From NCBI GenBank assembly GCA_029559035.1, contig JAKQCT010000096.1, positions 1 to 36,942 on the forward strand: a stretch of 36,942 nt of DNA. Direction: 5' to 3'. The translations under genes were made by a program, and so were the position numbers. This document shows, piece by piece, positions 4,687-12,552 of the stretch. The notes beneath the pieces were generated by a model. That model worked only from the letters and a program-made list of their open reading frames with translations, had not been told where the DNA came from and did not search any database. The first letter of the stretch is position 1, and every line of letters starts with the position of its first letter. This DNA comes from Acidobacteriota bacterium (GTDB lineage Bacteria > Acidobacteriota > UBA4820).

Positions 4687-5316
4687 ATGTCAGAGCAGGA
4701 GGGTTCGCTCAGCTTTGACAGAAGATACTGGGAGAAGGGATGTTTCCCTTTTGCCGGAGTTGACGAAGCGGGGAGGGGGGCTTTGTTCGGCCCCGTCGTT
4801 GCCGGGGCCGTCGTCATTTATCCCGAGAAGAAGATACCGGATTTCCGGGACTCCAAGGCAGTGGACGGGAAGAAGAGAGAGAAGCTCTTCGGCGAGCTTC
4901 TCGATTGCGGCCACGAATACGGAGTCGGAATAGTGGAAGCCGAGGAGATAGACAGGATCAACATCCTGGAGGCCACGATGAAGGCGATGAGGCTGGCCCT
5001 CGAAGCCCTTCCCGTCGAGCCCAAGCTTGCTTTAGTGGACGGGAACCGGGCACCTAATGTAAAATATTCGGTGGAAACGGTGGTCGGAGGAGACCGCCGT
5101 TCTCTCTCCATAGGCGCCGCGTCGATAGTCGCCAAGGTCGTGCGGGACAGATTGATGATAAAGCTTGATTCGGAATATCCGGGTTACGGGCTGACGAGGC
5201 ACAAGGGCTACGGGACGAAGGAGCACCTTTCCGCGCTCCGCGAACTTGGCCCCAGCGCCCTTCACAGAAAGAGCTTCAGGCCCGTGGCGGAGGCTTCAGA
5301 GGGGTTATGGCACTAG
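4687..5316 (+). CDS. rnhB: Ribonuclease HII
   Basis: RNase HII nicks RNA-DNA hybrids, starting removal of misincorporated ribonucleotides. The 209-residue protein carries the acidic active-site set: Asp-Glu in GVDEAGRG (about residues 24-31), Asp in ALVDGN, and Asp in AKVVRDRLM. The GLTRHKGYGTKEH motif near the C-terminus is also typical. No strong ribosome-binding site is seen; it starts eight bases after the rplS stop and is probably coupled. Its 3' end overlaps the next gene by ten bases. The YraN-family gene that often follows rnhB is missing. Confidence 0.95.
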   Translation: MSEQEGSLSFDRRYWEKGCFPFAGVDEAGRGALFGPVVAGAVVIYPEKKIPDFRDSKAVDGKKREKLFGELLDCGHEYGVGIVEAEEIDRINILEATMKAMRLALEALPVEPKLALVDGNRAPNVKYSVETVVGGDRRSLSIGAASIVAKVVRDRLMIKLDSEYPGYGLTRHKGYGTKEHLSALRELGPSALHRKSFRPVAEASEGLWH

Positions 5317-8300
5317 ACAGGGTCAAGACCAAGGCCAACATCGACAAGTTCATCAGGGCCAACAAGATCCCCGAGGCCATCCGAGAGGTCCAGAAGCTCG
5401 TCGAGGACAACCCGAGGGACACGGTCACCCTGCAGCAGCTGGCCAACCTTTACCTGAAAATGCAGAACAAGGATTCGGCGGTGCCGATCTTCATCAGGAT
5501 CGCCGAGCTTTACCACAAAGACGGGTTCACTCCGAAAGCCCTCGCGTCCATCAAGATCGCGCTCAGGGAGGCGCCCGATAACACCCAGGCGCAGGAGCTA
5601 TACGCCTCCTTCGCCGAGCAGACCGGGATGCAGAGGGACGCCCTGGAGGCTTACGAGAAGCTGGTAACGAGCTACATGAAGAACGGGATCCTCGACAAGG
5701 CGGAGAAGATCCTCGACAAGCTGCTCGAACTGGGGCCCGACAGCGTCCGCTACCAGCTTCAGCACGGAGACCTCCTGGTTAGGCTGAACAAGAAGGAGCA
5801 GGCGGTCCCGTCATACCTGAAGGCGGCGGAAAACCTCGTCAACCAGGGCATGATCAAGGAGGCCGCGAAGATCTTCGAGAGGGTCCTGCAGATCGACCCC
5901 AAAAAGCTCCAGGCCCTGGAGCACGCGGTGAGGAACCTCCTCGCGCAGAAAGAACCGCAGAAGGCCATAGAGCTCCTTGACGGCATAGTGCAGGGGAAAC
6001 CCGCTCCGCCAATCATCAACGAGATAAGGATAGACATACTGACCTCGACCGGCAATTTCAGAAAGGCCGAGGAGATAATGGCCGGGATCCTGCAGAAGAC
6101 GCCCCTTAGGGGCGGTATTCTGGCCAAGTTCCTCCGGCTGAACATGGCGCAGAAGAAGTTCCAGGAAGCCGCCCAGGTGCTGATGGCGGAGGTCGAAAAG
6201 GCGGAGCCCGCTTCGCTAAAGGAGTTCGAGGGAGGCTTCGAGGAGCTCCTCGGCGTGGCACCGACGCTGGATGCCGCGTACGAAGGACTCATTTCGGTCT
6301 GCAGGAAGCAGGGCAGCAACGCCAAGCTGCAGACGACCCTGGTCAAGTACTCCGACATCTTGACCAACGCGGGAGATCTGGAGAATGCCGCGCGCGTTCT
6401 AAAAGATGCGCTCGGACTTGCCCCCTCCGACAACACCCTCATGCTCAAGCTCGAGGAGATTGAAGAGAGGATGGGCGTTAAAAAGGCTCCAGCCCCCGAG
6501 CCTGCGACAGCAGAAGCAGGCAGGGATGAATCGACCAAATCCGAGTTCTACCCGACTCCTGAGCCGGTTAGGGAAGCCCCCGAGGTCGAGATAGAGGTCG
6601 AGATAGAGGACATCGCCCCCCAGCAGGCGCCGGCAAGCCCCCCGTCGATGCAGGAGGTCGAGGTGACCTCCACTTTCTCGGCTCCTCCGCGAGTTACGGA
6701 GGACTTCGCCTCTTCGGAGCAGGAAGGCGGATCTTCGGATGAAGAATCCGAAGAGATGGAGATCTCGGTCGAGTTCACGGCGGAGGGCGAAACGATGCAG
6801 CCCGTCCGCGACAGCGAAGAATACGGAGAATCCGCCGAGAAGGAGGCGCCCGAAGAGCCAAAAGCCGTACGAGCGCCGAAGAAGCTCGACAGCGAGGCGG
6901 CGGGAAAGATACAGGAAAGGCTCTCCGAAGCCCAGATCTTCTTAAAATACGGCCTCGTGGAGAAGGCCATCGGAGAACTGCAGGCCGTACTGAAGGAAGT
7001 CCCGGACCACATACAGGCGCACCAGAAACTTATCGGGATCTTCCGCTCCATGGACAAGAAGGACAAGCTTGTCCGTCAGATATTGAAGCTCGCGGCGGTC
7101 TTCAGGGACCAGGGGGACAGGGACACCTGCGACAACCTCCTTGACGAGGCGAGGGGGATAGACCCCAACCACAAGGCGATCGCGGATTTCGAGGTCGCGG
7201 GAGCGGGGAAGGGGCCGGAGAAGATCGAGAGCGCGAAGGACATAGATTCCCTCGCCAGGATGATGCAGGGGAAGAAACCCGCGCCGGCCGCCCCGAAGGA
7301 AGAGGCTCCGTCGATGGAACTAGTCGAGGAGGAGGAGCCCGAGATCGTCGAGGAACAGCTTGAAAAAGAAGACGAGGAGATCGACATAGAGATCGGAGCG
7401 CCGGACGCTTCCGACACGGGCTCGGAAAAGTTCGTGGAAGTCGAGGAATCGGCAACCACGACTCCTACGCCACAACAGATAATAACGCAGGCGGAGTCAG
7501 AGCCCGAAACAGCCCCGGAGGAAGAAGAATCGCTCCGCGTCGAGATAAGCGGAGAAGAAATATCGAGGAGCAGCGAGCTCGGCGAAAAGCTGGAGGAAGC
7601 GGAATTCTACTTCGCCCAGGAGCTGTGGGAGGACGCCAACAGGATAGCCGCGGAGCTGACGGAGAAGTTCCCCGCGGACCTCAGGGTCCAGAACCTGACC
7701 AAGAGGCTCGAAGAGCAGGGCCACATGATCTCCGTGACAGAAGGCATTCAGGCCGCGCCTGAGGAAATCTCCGCTCAAGAAGCCCGTGCCGAAGAACCTT
7801 CCAGAGAACAGGACGACCTTTCACTCCTCGACAGCGAGCTGGTCAAAGGGCTCGGAGGAGTGGTTCCCGCTGAAAGAAAGAAGGGGCGTGTCAAGGTCAC
7901 GCTCAGGGACATAATCCCGGAGGAAGAATCGGCGAAGAAGGAAGAAGAACAGCCCCTGCAGGAAACGGGCGAACAGTACTACGACCTGGCGAAGGAGCTC
8001 GGCGCGGCGCTGGAAGGGCTGGAAGGCACGGCCTCCGACCTCTTCGACGAGGAGGAGTCGGCTGAGAAGAGCCCCGAGGAGATGTCCTTCGAGGAGGTAT
8101 TCAAGGAGTTCAAGAAGGGCGTCGAGAAGAAGGTTCCCGAGGAAGACTTCGACACGCACTACAACCTCGGCATCGCCTACAAGGAGATGGAGCTTGTCGA
8201 GGAGGCGATAGGGGAGTTCCAGATCGCGGCGAAGTCACCGATCTATTTCGCGGACGCCTGCGCGATGCTCGGGAAGTGCTTCCAGATAAAGGGCATGGCG

Positions 8301-8501
8301 GACCTCTCGGAGAAGTGGTACAGGAAGGGGCTGGATTCGAAGGGGTTCCCGGAGGATGTCTACAACGGCCTGAGGTACGACCTCGCGGAGCTGCTGGAGA
8401 CGCAGGGAAAGAACAAGGACGCGCTCGCGATCTACAAGGAGGTCTACGCCTCGAACGCCAACTACCGCGATGTCAAGGACAAAATAGATTCGTTGAAATA
8501 A
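5307..8501 (+). CDS. Giant TPR protein with acidic linkers
   Basis: The 1064-residue protein alternates tetratricopeptide blocks with acidic, disordered-looking linkers. Helical TPR repeats fill about residues 1-390 (for example LANLYLKMQNKDSAVPIFIR and KAEKILDKLLELGPDS), then 530-640, 755-810 and 945-1064 (HYNLGIAYKEMELVEEAIGE). The linkers at about 400-525, 650-750 and 820-940 are Glu- and Pro-rich. There is no signal peptide or membrane segment, so it should be a cytoplasmic scaffold. It overlaps rnhB by ten bases and is the last gene of the rpsP operon. The TPR/acidic-linker/TPR layout recalls the shorter protein at 21296 and, loosely, FimV-type assembly proteins. The partner is unknown. 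Confidence 0.85.
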   Translation: MALDRVKTKANIDKFIRANKIPEAIREVQKLVEDNPRDTVTLQQLANLYLKMQNKDSAVPIFIRIAELYHKDGFTPKALASIKIALREAPDNTQAQELYASFAEQTGMQRDALEAYEKLVTSYMKNGILDKAEKILDKLLELGPDSVRYQLQHGDLLVRLNKKEQAVPSYLKAAENLVNQGMIKEAAKIFERVLQIDPKKLQALEHAVRNLLAQKEPQKAIELLDGIVQGKPAPPIINEIRIDILTSTGNFRKAEEIMAGILQKTPLRGGILAKFLRLNMAQKKFQEAAQVLMAEVEKAEPASLKEFEGGFEELLGVAPTLDAAYEGLISVCRKQGSNAKLQTTLVKYSDILTNAGDLENAARVLKDALGLAPSDNTLMLKLEEIEERMGVKKAPAPEPATAEAGRDESTKSEFYPTPEPVREAPEVEIEVEIEDIAPQQAPASPPSMQEVEVTSTFSAPPRVTEDFASSEQEGGSSDEESEEMEISVEFTAEGETMQPVRDSEEYGESAEKEAPEEPKAVRAPKKLDSEAAGKIQERLSEAQIFLKYGLVEKAIGELQAVLKEVPDHIQAHQKLIGIFRSMDKKDKLVRQILKLAAVFRDQGDRDTCDNLLDEARGIDPNHKAIADFEVAGAGKGPEKIESAKDIDSLARMMQGKKPAPAAPKEEAPSMELVEEEEPEIVEEQLEKEDEEIDIEIGAPDASDTGSEKFVEVEESATTTPTPQQIITQAESEPETAPEEEESLRVEISGEEISRSSELGEKLEEAEFYFAQELWEDANRIAAELTEKFPADLRVQNLTKRLEEQGHMISVTEGIQAAPEEISAQEARAEEPSREQDDLSLLDSELVKGLGGVVPAERKKGRVKVTLRDIIPEEESAKKEEEQPLQETGEQYYDLAKELGAALEGLEGTASDLFDEEESAEKSPEEMSFEEVFKEFKKGVEKKVPEEDFDTHYNLGIAYKEMELVEEAIGEFQIAAKSPIYFADACAMLGKCFQIKGMADLSEKWYRKGLDSKGFPEDVYNGLRYDLAELLETQGKNKDALAIYKEVYASNANYRDVKDKIDSLK

Positions 8502-8532: not shown

Positions 8533-8880
8533 CGCAGGTTAGGACGCTTCGCGTCTTTTTCGAACTTCGATCGAGTCTCTTTGTGTGCAAGCACCCGCGA
8601 GACTCTCTCTCGTTCTCTGTCAGCCTGTCGGCTTCCCCTGCGATCTGCGATCGAAGAACTCCCCCCCTCCCCCCCACCAACCGTTACAATGCGCCGACGG
8701 CGACGGGCCATCTACTGTGTCAAATTTCACCGTCCGCATCCTCAGAGTACATCACAGTACACTTCCGGTGCGGCCGGTTCATTTTCCTCGTACCTGGCCC
8801 ATCGGCGTCTATGCGCCAGCGCCCTTCGGTGCGCTGAGCCGTGGTCCTATGCTTTCTGCGAATTACAACGTGAGAATTTA
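8533..8880 (+). repeat. Left copy of a ~345 bp inverted repeat
   Basis: This non-coding stretch after the TPR gene matches, in inverted orientation, the segment at 9541-9882. Shared blocks in order are CGCAGG (8533), GACGCTTCGCGTCTTTTTCG (8543-8562), GTCAG-7nt-GCTTCCCCTGCG (8619-8642), ATGCGCCGACGGCGA (8689-8703), GTACATCxCAGTAC (8747-8760), CCCATCGGCGTCT (8798-8810) and a weaker CTGC(A/G)AATT...GAATT tail near 8857-8879. Spacings between blocks agree with the other copy to within about 0-7 bases. The copies are diverged between the blocks. No protein-coding signal is convincing here. Confidence 0.75.
8543..8560 (+). terminator. Terminator of the rpsP operon, inside the repeat
   Basis: A five-pair stem GACGC/GCGTC with a TTC loop is followed directly by five T residues. 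It lies 41 bases after the stop codon of the giant TPR gene and in the correct orientation. The hairpin belongs to the outer end of the left inverted repeat. The stem is short, so efficiency is uncertain. Confidence 0.55.
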
Positions 8881-8882
8881 AT

Positions 8883-9521
8883 TTACTTGGCTGGAAGATC
8901 GTTCTCAGTAAGATATCGTTTTATTTCCGAAAGTTGCTGTTTGTTCAACTTCACCTTCATGGTTAATGGCCTGCTGCCGTTCCAATTTAATGCAAGGTCC
9001 GTAGAAATTTCTTTCTTTTCTAATTCCTTTAATAGTGTTTGCAGATAACTTGTCCTCTCGGTAAGAGGTAATGACTGCATGTTACATTTTATTTCTAATT
9101 CTTGTAAAGTGCCAATCCACTGGGCATAATGATTTGGTGATAGTATTAAAGCACCTTCTAAAAAATCAAAATGACCTATTGCTGCTAACCCTGGGCCAAA
9201 GATCACCCCCACAGATGTTGCCCTTTTTGGTTCGAATTTCTTACCTTTGCTGTAGATAAATGGATTGGCCAGATATGAAGTCCCTGCTTTTCCTGCTGAC
9301 GGTCCTTCAAGTATACCTCCACCTTTACCTTTGAAATAATAGGGGATGACAAGCACGTCTTGAATAGATTCGCCTGATATTTGGCTCGTAATAATTAAGT
9401 CCCCGATTTTCACGAATGAAAAGTTCGAAACAAATGGAAAGCAACCTAATAACGCAAAACATAAAAACGAAATTAAAATAATGAGCAACACAGGATATAT
9501 TCTTATAGTCAACCCACTCAT
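8883..9521 (-). CDS. Lipoprotein of unknown function, AT-rich cargo gene
   Basis: The 212-residue product has an N-terminal hydrophobic stretch (residues about 6-25) ending in a lipobox-like FALLGC, so it is probably a lipoprotein with the acylated Cys near residue 27. The mature part has no recognised domain. It contains Gly-rich GKGGGILEGPSAGKAG, a GVIFGPGLAAIGHFDF segment and a charged C-terminal region with KVKLNKQQLSEIKRYL. A GGGAGG site precedes the ATG by five bases. Composition and codon use are much more AT-rich than all neighbours, and inverted repeats abut both ends, so it looks acquired. No function is assigned. Confidence 0.75.
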   Translation of the reverse strand: MSGLTIRIYPVLLIILISFLCFALLGCFPFVSNFSFVKIGDLIITSQISGESIQDVLVIPYYFKGKGGGILEGPSAGKAGTSYLANPFIYSKGKKFEPKRATSVGVIFGPGLAAIGHFDFLEGALILSPNHYAQWIGTLQELEIKCNMQSLPLTERTSYLQTLLKELEKKEISTDLALNWNGSRPLTMKVKLNKQQLSEIKRYLTENDLPAK

Positions 9522-9536
9522 TTATCCTCCCCGAAT

Positions 9537-9565
9537 ATTATATTCCTAATTCTTAACAATTTGCA
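9537..9565 (-). promoter_or_regulatory. Possible promoter of the lipoprotein gene
   Basis: On the minus strand a perfect TATAAT (9542-9537) lies 17 bases after TGCAAA (9565-9560), which matches the -35 consensus at only three positions. The gene's ribosome-binding site follows within about ten bases, so the leader would be very short. The -35 part falls in the inner end of the right repeat. Confidence 0.35.
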
Positions 9566-9882
9566 GGATGGTTGAAACAGTTGGGGGTAAGCTTTGCTTG
9601 CCGCGCCAAGACGCCGATGGGCGGCATGCGAGGAAGGCAAGGGGGTTAAGCCCGACTCGTACTGGGATGTACTTGGAGGGCCTTAGACCCCGCAGGCTGA
9701 CAAAGCAGTTCGCTCCATCGCCGTCGGCGCATGGTAGGGTGTGGGGGGTGGATGTTTTATCTTTTCATCAGGCGCAGGGGAAGCTGAAAGCTGACAGGAG
9801 GCGAGCGGAAGGCTCGGAAGGAGCTTGCTTATTGAAGAGCCTTTACGCGAAGCCGAAAAAGACGCGAAGCGTCTGCCCTGCG
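9541..9882 (-). repeat. Right copy of the ~345 bp inverted repeat
   Basis: Read on the minus strand from 9882, this copy repeats the blocks of 8533-8880 in the same order: CGCAGG (9882-9877), GACGCTTCGCGTCTTTTTCG (9873-9854), the GTCAG...CTTCCCCTGCG block (9795-9773), ATGCGCCGACGGCGA (9732-9718), GTACATCCCAGTAC (9672-9659) and CCCATCGGCGTCT (9621-9609). The distance between the GTAC block and the CCCATCGG block is 51 bases in both copies. It begins right beside the lipoprotein gene's control region and ends about 80 bases before the asnS stop. Confidence 0.75.
9856..9873 (-). terminator. Terminator facing the asnS operon, inside the repeat
   Basis: On the minus strand this is GACGC-TTC-GCGTC followed by five T residues, identical to the hairpin at 8543-8560 but on the other strand. 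Transcripts of the dnaB-alr-FHA-asnS direction would meet it about 90 bases after the asnS stop codon. Confidence 0.5.
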
Positions 9883-9893
9883 CTTATAAAAAA

Positions 9894-9913
9894 GGGCGAA
9901 CGACCGTTCGCCC
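9894..9913. repeat. REP-like perfect palindrome
   Basis: GGGCGAACG and CGTTCGCCC form a nine-pair inverted repeat around a two-base AC centre, followed by CCTACA. Short palindromes of this GGGCGAAC...GTTCGCCCCTAC kind recur in intergenic DNA of many bacteria. Here it is next to the outer end of the right long repeat. Confidence 0.6.
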
Positions 9914-9924
9914 CTACAATTTAT

Positions 9925-9960: not shown

Positions 9961-11253
<1,293 letters not shown>

Positions 11254-11274
11254 TTTACGAACTCCTTGTTCCCG

Positions 11275-12552
11275 TTAAGGCGTTATCCTTTTCTGTTCTA
11301 TCCTGAAGATGAACTGGCACTGCCCGGCGTGGACCTGCGAGCCTGGCTTCAGCTCCCTGAACTTCACTCTTTCTCCGTCCACGTATGTCCCGTTCGTCGA
11401 TTCGAGGTCGAGGATGAACCACTGCTCTTCCTTGGGGACGATCCTGAAATGCTGTCCCGAAATAGTCTTGTCGTCTATCGCCACGTCGTTGACCTTGTTC
11501 CTCCCGACGGTCGTCGGCTGGCTCTTCGAGACCTGGAACATCCTCGGCGGCTGATTGCCCCGCATGTGCAGGAGTATCGGGATCTCCTCTATCACCATCG
11601 TCGAGTCGAGGTCGTCGGCGGTCGGGGCTTTCTTGAAGAGCGACGGGTCGAGGTCTGCCGGCGGAGGCGGTTCCTTGGACTCGCCGATCAGGGGTACGCC
11701 CGGCTGGGTGTCCGAAGGGATCTTCTCGAGGCAGTCGGGACATTCGGTCTCCCAGACCGAGAATACCCTCCCGCATTTCGGGCACGCTTTATCCTTTTCC
11801 TTCTTGTTCCTGAAAAAGAGGAAGATGGCGACCGAGGCGGCGATGACCACCGCGATCAAAGTGAAGAGCAGGATGACCGTGAGAAGAGAGAAGGCGCTCT
11901 CTTCAACTTTCGGCTGCGGAGCCGGAACAGGCTGGGGCGGGGGAGGTGCCTGCTTCTCTTCTACGGGTTTGATCTCTTTTTTGGCCCTCAGGCCGTCCGC
12001 TCCCGAGACTGCGGACGCGGGAGCGAATGAGCCGATCTTTCCGAGGTAGGTCCCCTTCGTGAGGGCGGAAAGCCTTTTAAGGTTTTTTTCTTCCGCGCCC
12101 ATCCCCACCGTAATTATCGGGACCTTCAGCGCCTCCGCCTTTTTCGCCACGTCTTCTATCGTCACTGCGGAGTTCTCGTCCTTGCCGTCGCTGAAGAGGA
12201 TGATCACGCCCCTCTCCTTCGAGTCCTCGAATTCGGAGAGCGTCCCGAAGATCGCGTCGTAGAGGAGAGTGTACCTGCCGCCCTGCTTCGCCTCCGATAT
12301 GTTCCGTGCCACGGAAGAGGAGTCTGTCAGGGAAGAGCCCAGAGTTTCGGGGTCGTCGTTGAAGGAGATGAGCGTCACGGGCCCCTGTTCGAGGAGGCCG
12401 GGAGCGAGGCCCGATATCTTCTCTTTCGCGAGGTTGAACTCGCCCGGAGGTATCGACCTGCTCGTGTCGAGGAGGACCGCGGTCGTCTGGGAGCAAGCCG
12501 GGAATGCGGCGAGGACCGCCACCGCCAACAGGATCAGCGCGCCTTTCTTCAT
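11275..12552 (-). CDS. Membrane protein with VWA, zinc-ribbon and FHA domains
   Basis: The 425-residue protein starts with a signal sequence (1-20). A von Willebrand A domain (about 22-180) has an intact metal-site motif DTSRS (29-33) and FSDGKDEN. A Pro-rich linker and one transmembrane helix (about 221-247) follow. Beyond the membrane come a zinc ribbon (Cys257, Cys260, Cys271, Cys274) and a C-terminal FHA domain with VGRNKVNDV, SGQH and LESTNGTYVDG, which would bind phosphothreonine. The predicted topology places VWA outside and FHA in the cytoplasm, so it could pass information across the inner membrane. It has its own promoter and AAGGAG site. No Ser/Thr kinase gene lies nearby. The partner is unknown. 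Confidence 0.9.
   Translation of the reverse strand: MKKGALILLAVAVLAAFPACSQTTAVLLDTSRSIPPGEFNLAKEKISGLAPGLLEQGPVTLISFNDDPETLGSSLTDSSSVARNISEAKQGGRYTLLYDAIFGTLSEFEDSKERGVIILFSDGKDENSAVTIEDVAKKAEALKVPIITVGMGAEEKNLKRLSALTKGTYLGKIGSFAPASAVSGADGLRAKKEIKPVEEKQAPPPPQPVPAPQPKVEESAFSLLTVILLFTLIAVVIAASVAIFLFFRNKKEKDKACPKCGRVFSVWETECPDCLEKIPSDTQPGVPLIGESKEPPPPADLDPSLFKKAPTADDLDSTMVIEEIPILLHMRGNQPPRMFQVSKSQPTTVGRNKVNDVAIDDKTISGQHFRIVPKEEQWFILDLESTNGTYVDGERVKFRELKPGSQVHAGQCQFIFRIEQKRITP

Follow-up and report, generated by a model that had tools for sequence, protein, structure and literature searches.

A dispersed, folded repeat forms inverted pairs around AT-rich genes in an Acidobacteriota genome, suggesting small gene cassettes

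Two inverted repeats enclose one AT-rich gene

In the 36,942-nucleotide stretch of Acidobacteriota DNA analysed here (the window), a single AT-rich lipoprotein gene is enclosed by two non-coding stretches that the initial annotation took for inverted repeats of ~345 bp. This raised the question of whether the repeats are the ends of a composite mobile unit lacking a transposase, or two insertions of a dispersed structured repeat beside an acquired gene. The features of the locus are as follows.

5307..8501, plus strand: TPR protein gene, host flank, converging on the candidate cassette
8533..8863, plus strand: arm A, full-length structured repeat of the A subfamily (copy searches, alignment, consensus structure)
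8533..8642, plus strand: 5' domain of arm A, a CGCAGG/CCCTGCG stem around small hairpins (sequence; 11-copy consensus structure)
8656..8680, plus strand: C-rich linker from the 5' domain to the core (alignment of copies)
8690..8810, plus strand: core hairpin of arm A, 133 bits with covariance model R1; homologous cores in other phyla
8809..8838, plus strand: 3' hairpin of arm A (covarying helix 11)
8883..9521, minus strand: passenger gene, a 212-aa orphan lipoprotein (P0001), about 37% GC
9524..9533, minus strand: Shine-Dalgarno-like site of the passenger gene, GGGGAGGATAA ahead of the ATG (sequence read directly)
9559..9882, minus strand: arm B, structured repeat of the B subfamily, inverted relative to arm A (copy search, alignment)
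9609..9731, minus strand: core hairpin of arm B, 126.8 bits with covariance model R1
9961..11253, minus strand: asparaginyl-tRNA synthetase-like gene (asnS), host flank, converging on the candidate cassette

BLASTN of 8533–8882 against the reverse complement of 9541–9900 gave 192 identical positions out of 289 (66%, E 6e-27), with a local score of 88 compared with 11 for a same-strand control and a mean of 13.0 (sd 1.9, maximum 24) for dinucleotide-preserving shuffles. A repeat search disclosed a perfect inverted block (20/20) at 8543–8562 and 9854–9873. These results confirm that the two inverted repeats are real. Their similarity extends from the outer limits, CGCAGG at 8533 and CCCTGCG at 9882, to inner limits near CTGCGAAT (8863) and ATTTGCAG (9559), giving two near-equal arms of ~325–330 bp, slightly shorter than first described. 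The window arms are only ~66% identical and are therefore not the product of a recent joint duplication. Immediately outside arm B, at 9892–9915, lies a small separate palindrome (AGGGGCGAACGGTCGTTCGCCCTT) with CTTCAGCC-type repeats, pieces of which are found again on many contigs.

Arm A begins 31 bp past the stop codon of the TPR gene, and the first hairpin of its 5' domain, GACGCTTCGCGTC, is followed by TTTTT. The passenger protein carries a signal peptide and an LLGC lipobox, both assigned by eye. GC content drops from ~0.59 to 0.37 at its gene, as the annotation had noticed; the window and a small number of further stretches served as background. Vertical conservation of the gene, which would have spoken against an acquired unit, was absent: P0001 had a single weak homologue (35%) among 395 other genomes of the phylum, with no structured repeat found near it, and none in the 39 genomes of the first search. 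A phage or plasmid source of the passenger was rejected, P0001 being without a match in viral contigs or plasmids.

The repeat belongs to a family that spans several phyla

Further copies are present both in the window's own genome (G000, an assembly of 99 contigs) and in relatives. Within G000 the two arms matched 22 and 33 places, some of them merely short pieces or flank sequence, and a covariance model of the core found 20 places, which sets the family at ~20 copies in this genome. These copies are mostly 65–86% identical, and the arms fall into well-supported A and B subfamilies. With the same model, relatives contained 0–43 copies per genome, and copy number varied within one genus from 25 (G003) to 0 (G001 and G002). 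Relatives outside the family of the window's bacterium match mainly over a ~118-bp core, although the copies they themselves carry reach about 400 bp.

A search with an exact pattern for the centre of the core found at least 118 stretches, from Acidobacteria, Rokubacteria, Firmicutes (mainly Selenomonadales and Bacillota MAGs), Myxococcales, Gammaproteobacteria and others. A core of ~120 bases is thus common to Acidobacteriota and to Rokubacteria, Firmicutes, Myxococcales and Gammaproteobacteria MAGs; it recurs across phyla, and the outer stems vary. A phage origin was rejected since the tight core pattern had no match in viral contigs and the arm A core none in phages, and a plasmid origin since the cores of two relatives had no match in plasmids.

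Several variants of the element were also observed. Type II elements of G003 (L294–L309) carry the same core within a larger palindrome with ~75-bp terminal inverted repeats, and several contigs of that genome terminate in them. One core subfamily has an insert of ~50 bases (GGAGCCCTCGCTGACT..AAGCCAAGCAGTTGGCTT..) able to form its own hairpin (L070:650-822, L254:882-1054, L255:4099-4268, L257:943-1114 and L258:1726-1892). In Myxococcales loci (L108 and others), a MITE-like repeat surrounds the core; its inverted ends resemble AGAGGGTGTTTGGG...AAAAAT, and TTA or TA often flanks it.

Compensatory changes support a conserved fold

Structures were derived from three alignments comprising 46 sequences from many phyla (A1), 23 from Acidobacteriota (A2), and 11 full-length copies from G000 (A3). 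All three yielded consistent nested structures with compensatory changes, and double-change cells exceeded those of shuffles in each (A1, 163 vs 51; A2, 72 vs 18; A3, 79 vs 36); 97% of the cells of A2 were paired. The signal collapsed when partners were slid by 1–3 columns, a control that favours the structures, as they were derived from those same alignments. Two measures did not stand out: pair types were no more numerous than in shuffles for the 11 copies, and doubly changed pairs not clearly so for the 46 sequences. The remaining measures exceeded shuffles. Taken together, covariation strongly supports a conserved fold, and with the copies found elsewhere it bears out the dispersed structured repeat that the annotation had offered as its alternative.

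The full architecture consists of the 5' domain (CGCAGG/CCCTGCG), the C-rich linker, the core hairpin with a GTAC stem, and the 3' hairpin, whose pairs swap between C-G and G-C. At the 5' end, CGCAGG can pair with either CCTGCA at the 3' end or the internal CCCTGCG. Type I copies of G003 share this architecture with different stem letters. No Rfam family reached its gathering score in the window, and across 10 other loci a tRNA was the sole match. Fold energy was discarded as a guide to the transcribed strand; the CACCGG strand folded better in 134 of 147 sequences, and G-U counts leave this bias unexplained.

Inverted pairs and polarity in the window's own genome

Four loci of G000 hold an inverted pair of arms with heads outward and one AT-rich ORF, and no transposase of its own, filling the gap.

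Pair 1, window locus: lipoprotein ORF
Pair 2, C99 (L069; G000:C99:10500-14500): ORF of a ~450-aa protein, cassette of 2.1 kb
Pair 3, C3: ORF of about 130 aa
Pair 4, C74 (L260; G000:C74:16500-22000): lipoprotein ORF split by an IS630-like transposase (insertion sequence called by eye)

By chance, 0.33 close pairs were expected (Poisson p 4e-4), with a 2.5-kb limit chosen after seeing the data and the truncated far arm of C74 (~70 bp) included in the count. Each pair combines one B arm with one non-B arm, and three of the four sit between convergent genes. At roughly ten loci the upstream gene is GC-rich and its stop codon lies 3–78 bp ahead of the start of the arm, and in several copies, including both window arms, a T-run follows the first hairpin. 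A role of this hairpin as a transcription terminator would be plausible on these grounds; a terminator pattern scan left it out of its list and showed no clear excess over shuffles.

When the G000 copies were oriented by their core, the 300 bp on the 3' side fell below 0.47 GC in 16 of 18 copies, compared with 0 of 18 on the 5' side and 1.4% of background windows. Mean GC was 0.42 on the 3' side and 0.58 on the 5' side (Wilcoxon p 4.5e-4). The majority of G000 copies have a single recognised arm, and single-armed AT-rich blocks are more numerous than paired ones. Small ORFs occupy the other AT-rich blocks, and by eye several of them encode signal peptides or membrane segments; family matches were few among the ten cargo and transposase proteins of this genome that were searched. 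That the repeat almost always lies at the edge of a small, AT-rich, foreign-looking block in G000 suggests small mobile gene cassettes without a transposase of their own. The polarity was not seen in G004, Rokubacteria, Myxococcales or Selenomonadales, and the bracketing of cargo is therefore a property of G000 and not of the element as a whole.

One empty site among the paired loci

At C99, the 2.1-kb arm-ORF-arm unit separates a metallophosphoesterase-like gene from a TrmH-like gene. In G007, a member of another family, the same two genes are convergent and touching (L367), which makes this an empty site for the C99 pair; it is a single case across a wide distance, and may instead reflect loss in G007. 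Comparison of the window locus with relatives gave no clean empty site, the gene after asnS differing in every relative compared. This locus sits at a synteny break, with asnS and a VWA/FHA-domain gene (9961–12552) linked in most relatives. Nor were empty sites found at the pyrG and UbiA loci, where neighbours differ in relatives. No consistent target-site duplication was seen at the inverted pairs when their flanks were read by eye, and no transposase linked to the element was found.

Origin of the inverted pairs

The explanation we favour, at about even strength, is a MITE-like family, distantly ERIC-like, whose inverted pairs are passenger-gene cassettes mobilised in trans by a transposase encoded elsewhere. 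The arms would belong to a non-autonomous interspersed element of MITE-like type whose folded core is conserved, and an inverted pair with its passenger would form a small composite cassette with the arms as ends. A transposase encoded elsewhere would recognise either the folded arms or the outer ends. Insertion would take place immediately after stop codons, in many cases between two convergent genes, and the first arm hairpin, with its T-run, could there terminate the host transcript. Of the composite unit proposed by the annotation, the bracketing of one AT-rich gene at several loci and the empty site at C99 hold up; movement of the unit as a whole is a step further, and arms and passenger may have moved jointly.

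The strongest competitor, somewhat less probable though well within reach, holds that the events were independent: MITE-like insertions behind stop codons with AT-rich DNA inserted separately, or a preference of the element for the edges of acquired DNA, so that pairs reflect coincidence or a hot spot. The surplus of single-armed blocks over pairs agrees with this, as do the element standing alone and intergenic in G004, Rokubacteria, Myxococcales and Selenomonadales, and the different subfamilies of the two arms of a pair. It fits less well with the 3' position of the AT-rich DNA in 16 of 18 copies, with the outward heads and single gap-filling ORF of all four pairs (excess at p 4e-4), or with C99, where arms and ORF jointly separate genes that touch in G007. 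We consider it improbable that the element is chiefly a domesticated 3'-end regulatory RNA or insulator, which would end host transcripts, shield the AT-rich gene and be kept by selection, with movement secondary. Compensatory changes across phyla, a location immediately past stop codons and, in several copies, a T-run that follows the first hairpin would suit such a role, whereas 0 to 25 copies within one genus fits a mobile repeat, and the terminator scan, with no clear excess and the hairpin missing from its list, speaks against it.

A REP-like system, in which REP-associated tyrosine transposases (RAYTs) mobilise the repeat, was suggested by two neighbours: at G000:C78 a half copy lies ~37 bp from a RAYT gene (NF047646 over cut-off; L211:997-1941), and at G007:C65 a RAYT (L212) is adjoined by a full copy. 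However, the element occurs at 2 of 47 Y1_Tnp loci, near the roughly 0.6 we estimate from copy density, and among genomes rich in the element, G041, G042 and G045 gave no match to Y1_Tnp and G040 a fragment only; we dropped this candidate as very unlikely. Least probable of all is an artefact in which metagenome assembly created chimeric joins at repeats. Repeats are known to break assemblies, and G000 is in 99 contigs, yet the copies, mostly 65–86% identical, differ too much to be mistaken for one another, one and the same polarity appears at 16 separate places, and the element is present in many independent assemblies.

Comparison with known systems

Among known repeats, ERIC (IRU) elements come close, sharing a ~120-bp nested hairpin, a similar fold and many intergenic copies. 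E. coli ERIC aligned colinearly with the family in one orientation and beat 200 dinucleotide and 300 palindrome-keeping shuffles, as a control stretch did not; its mean score of 14.6 was reached by 0 of the 300 palindrome-keeping shuffles. This signal comes mostly from Selenomonadales copies, the window arms contributing weakly, and with covariance models R1 and R2 in global mode ERIC was not above background. Kinship with ERIC is thus suggestive at the level of sequence. The annotation's statement that the blocks differ from any element it could name is in keeping with the absence of an Rfam match, and is qualified by this colinear similarity; a literature search for the core sequences found no paper. 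ERIC hosts are reported as Enterobacteriaceae and Vibrionaceae, whereas the present family occurs in Acidobacteriota and other phyla, and Acidobacteriota copies, unlike ERIC, have the extra 5' domain, C-rich linker and 3' hairpin. According to a review, ERIC inserted at gene 3' ends in Yersinia affects transcript levels (PMC10969869).

A broader reading, which we offer tentatively and hold to be rather doubtful, is a phylum-spanning superfamily of structured elements with ERIC as its enterobacterial branch, whose inverted pairs now serve in an Acidobacteriota lineage as the ends of cassettes of one gene each, with orphan secreted or membrane proteins as cargo. If the core unites ERIC with the repeats of Acidobacteriota, Rokubacteria, Firmicutes and Myxococcota, a long-known repeat gains a far wider family and a defined conserved fold, through which the mobilising enzyme would become searchable. 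If inverted pairs are cassette ends, they would offer single orphan genes a simple route to enter chromosomes and be insulated there.

Correia elements (CREE/NEMIS), which we take to be dispersed, non-coding, hairpin-forming repeats without a transposase, presumably resemble the family. As in MITEs generally, the G000 element is a dispersed repeat of ~330 bp in about 20 copies with no gene assigned within its arms, and some copies in other genomes (G003 type II, Myxococcales) have long terminal inverted repeats. It differs from Correia elements and MITEs in a core that crosses phyla while the outer stems change; no consistent target duplication was seen by eye in G000. REP/RAYT systems likewise involve interspersed palindromes, and two RAYT genes lie beside copies, but the element described here is much larger and more complex, and its association with RAYTs was near chance. 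Paired non-autonomous ends that mobilise intervening DNA without a transposase of their own are known from the Tn3-derived TIMEs (PMC4133298) and from a mobile insertion cassette (MIC) with a MITE (PMC5444012). TIMEs have 38-bp Tn3-type inverted repeats and 5–6 bp duplications, whereas the window arms are structured repeats of ~330 bp for which no parent transposon was recognised; the inverted pairs of G000 may nevertheless be cassette ends of a comparable kind.
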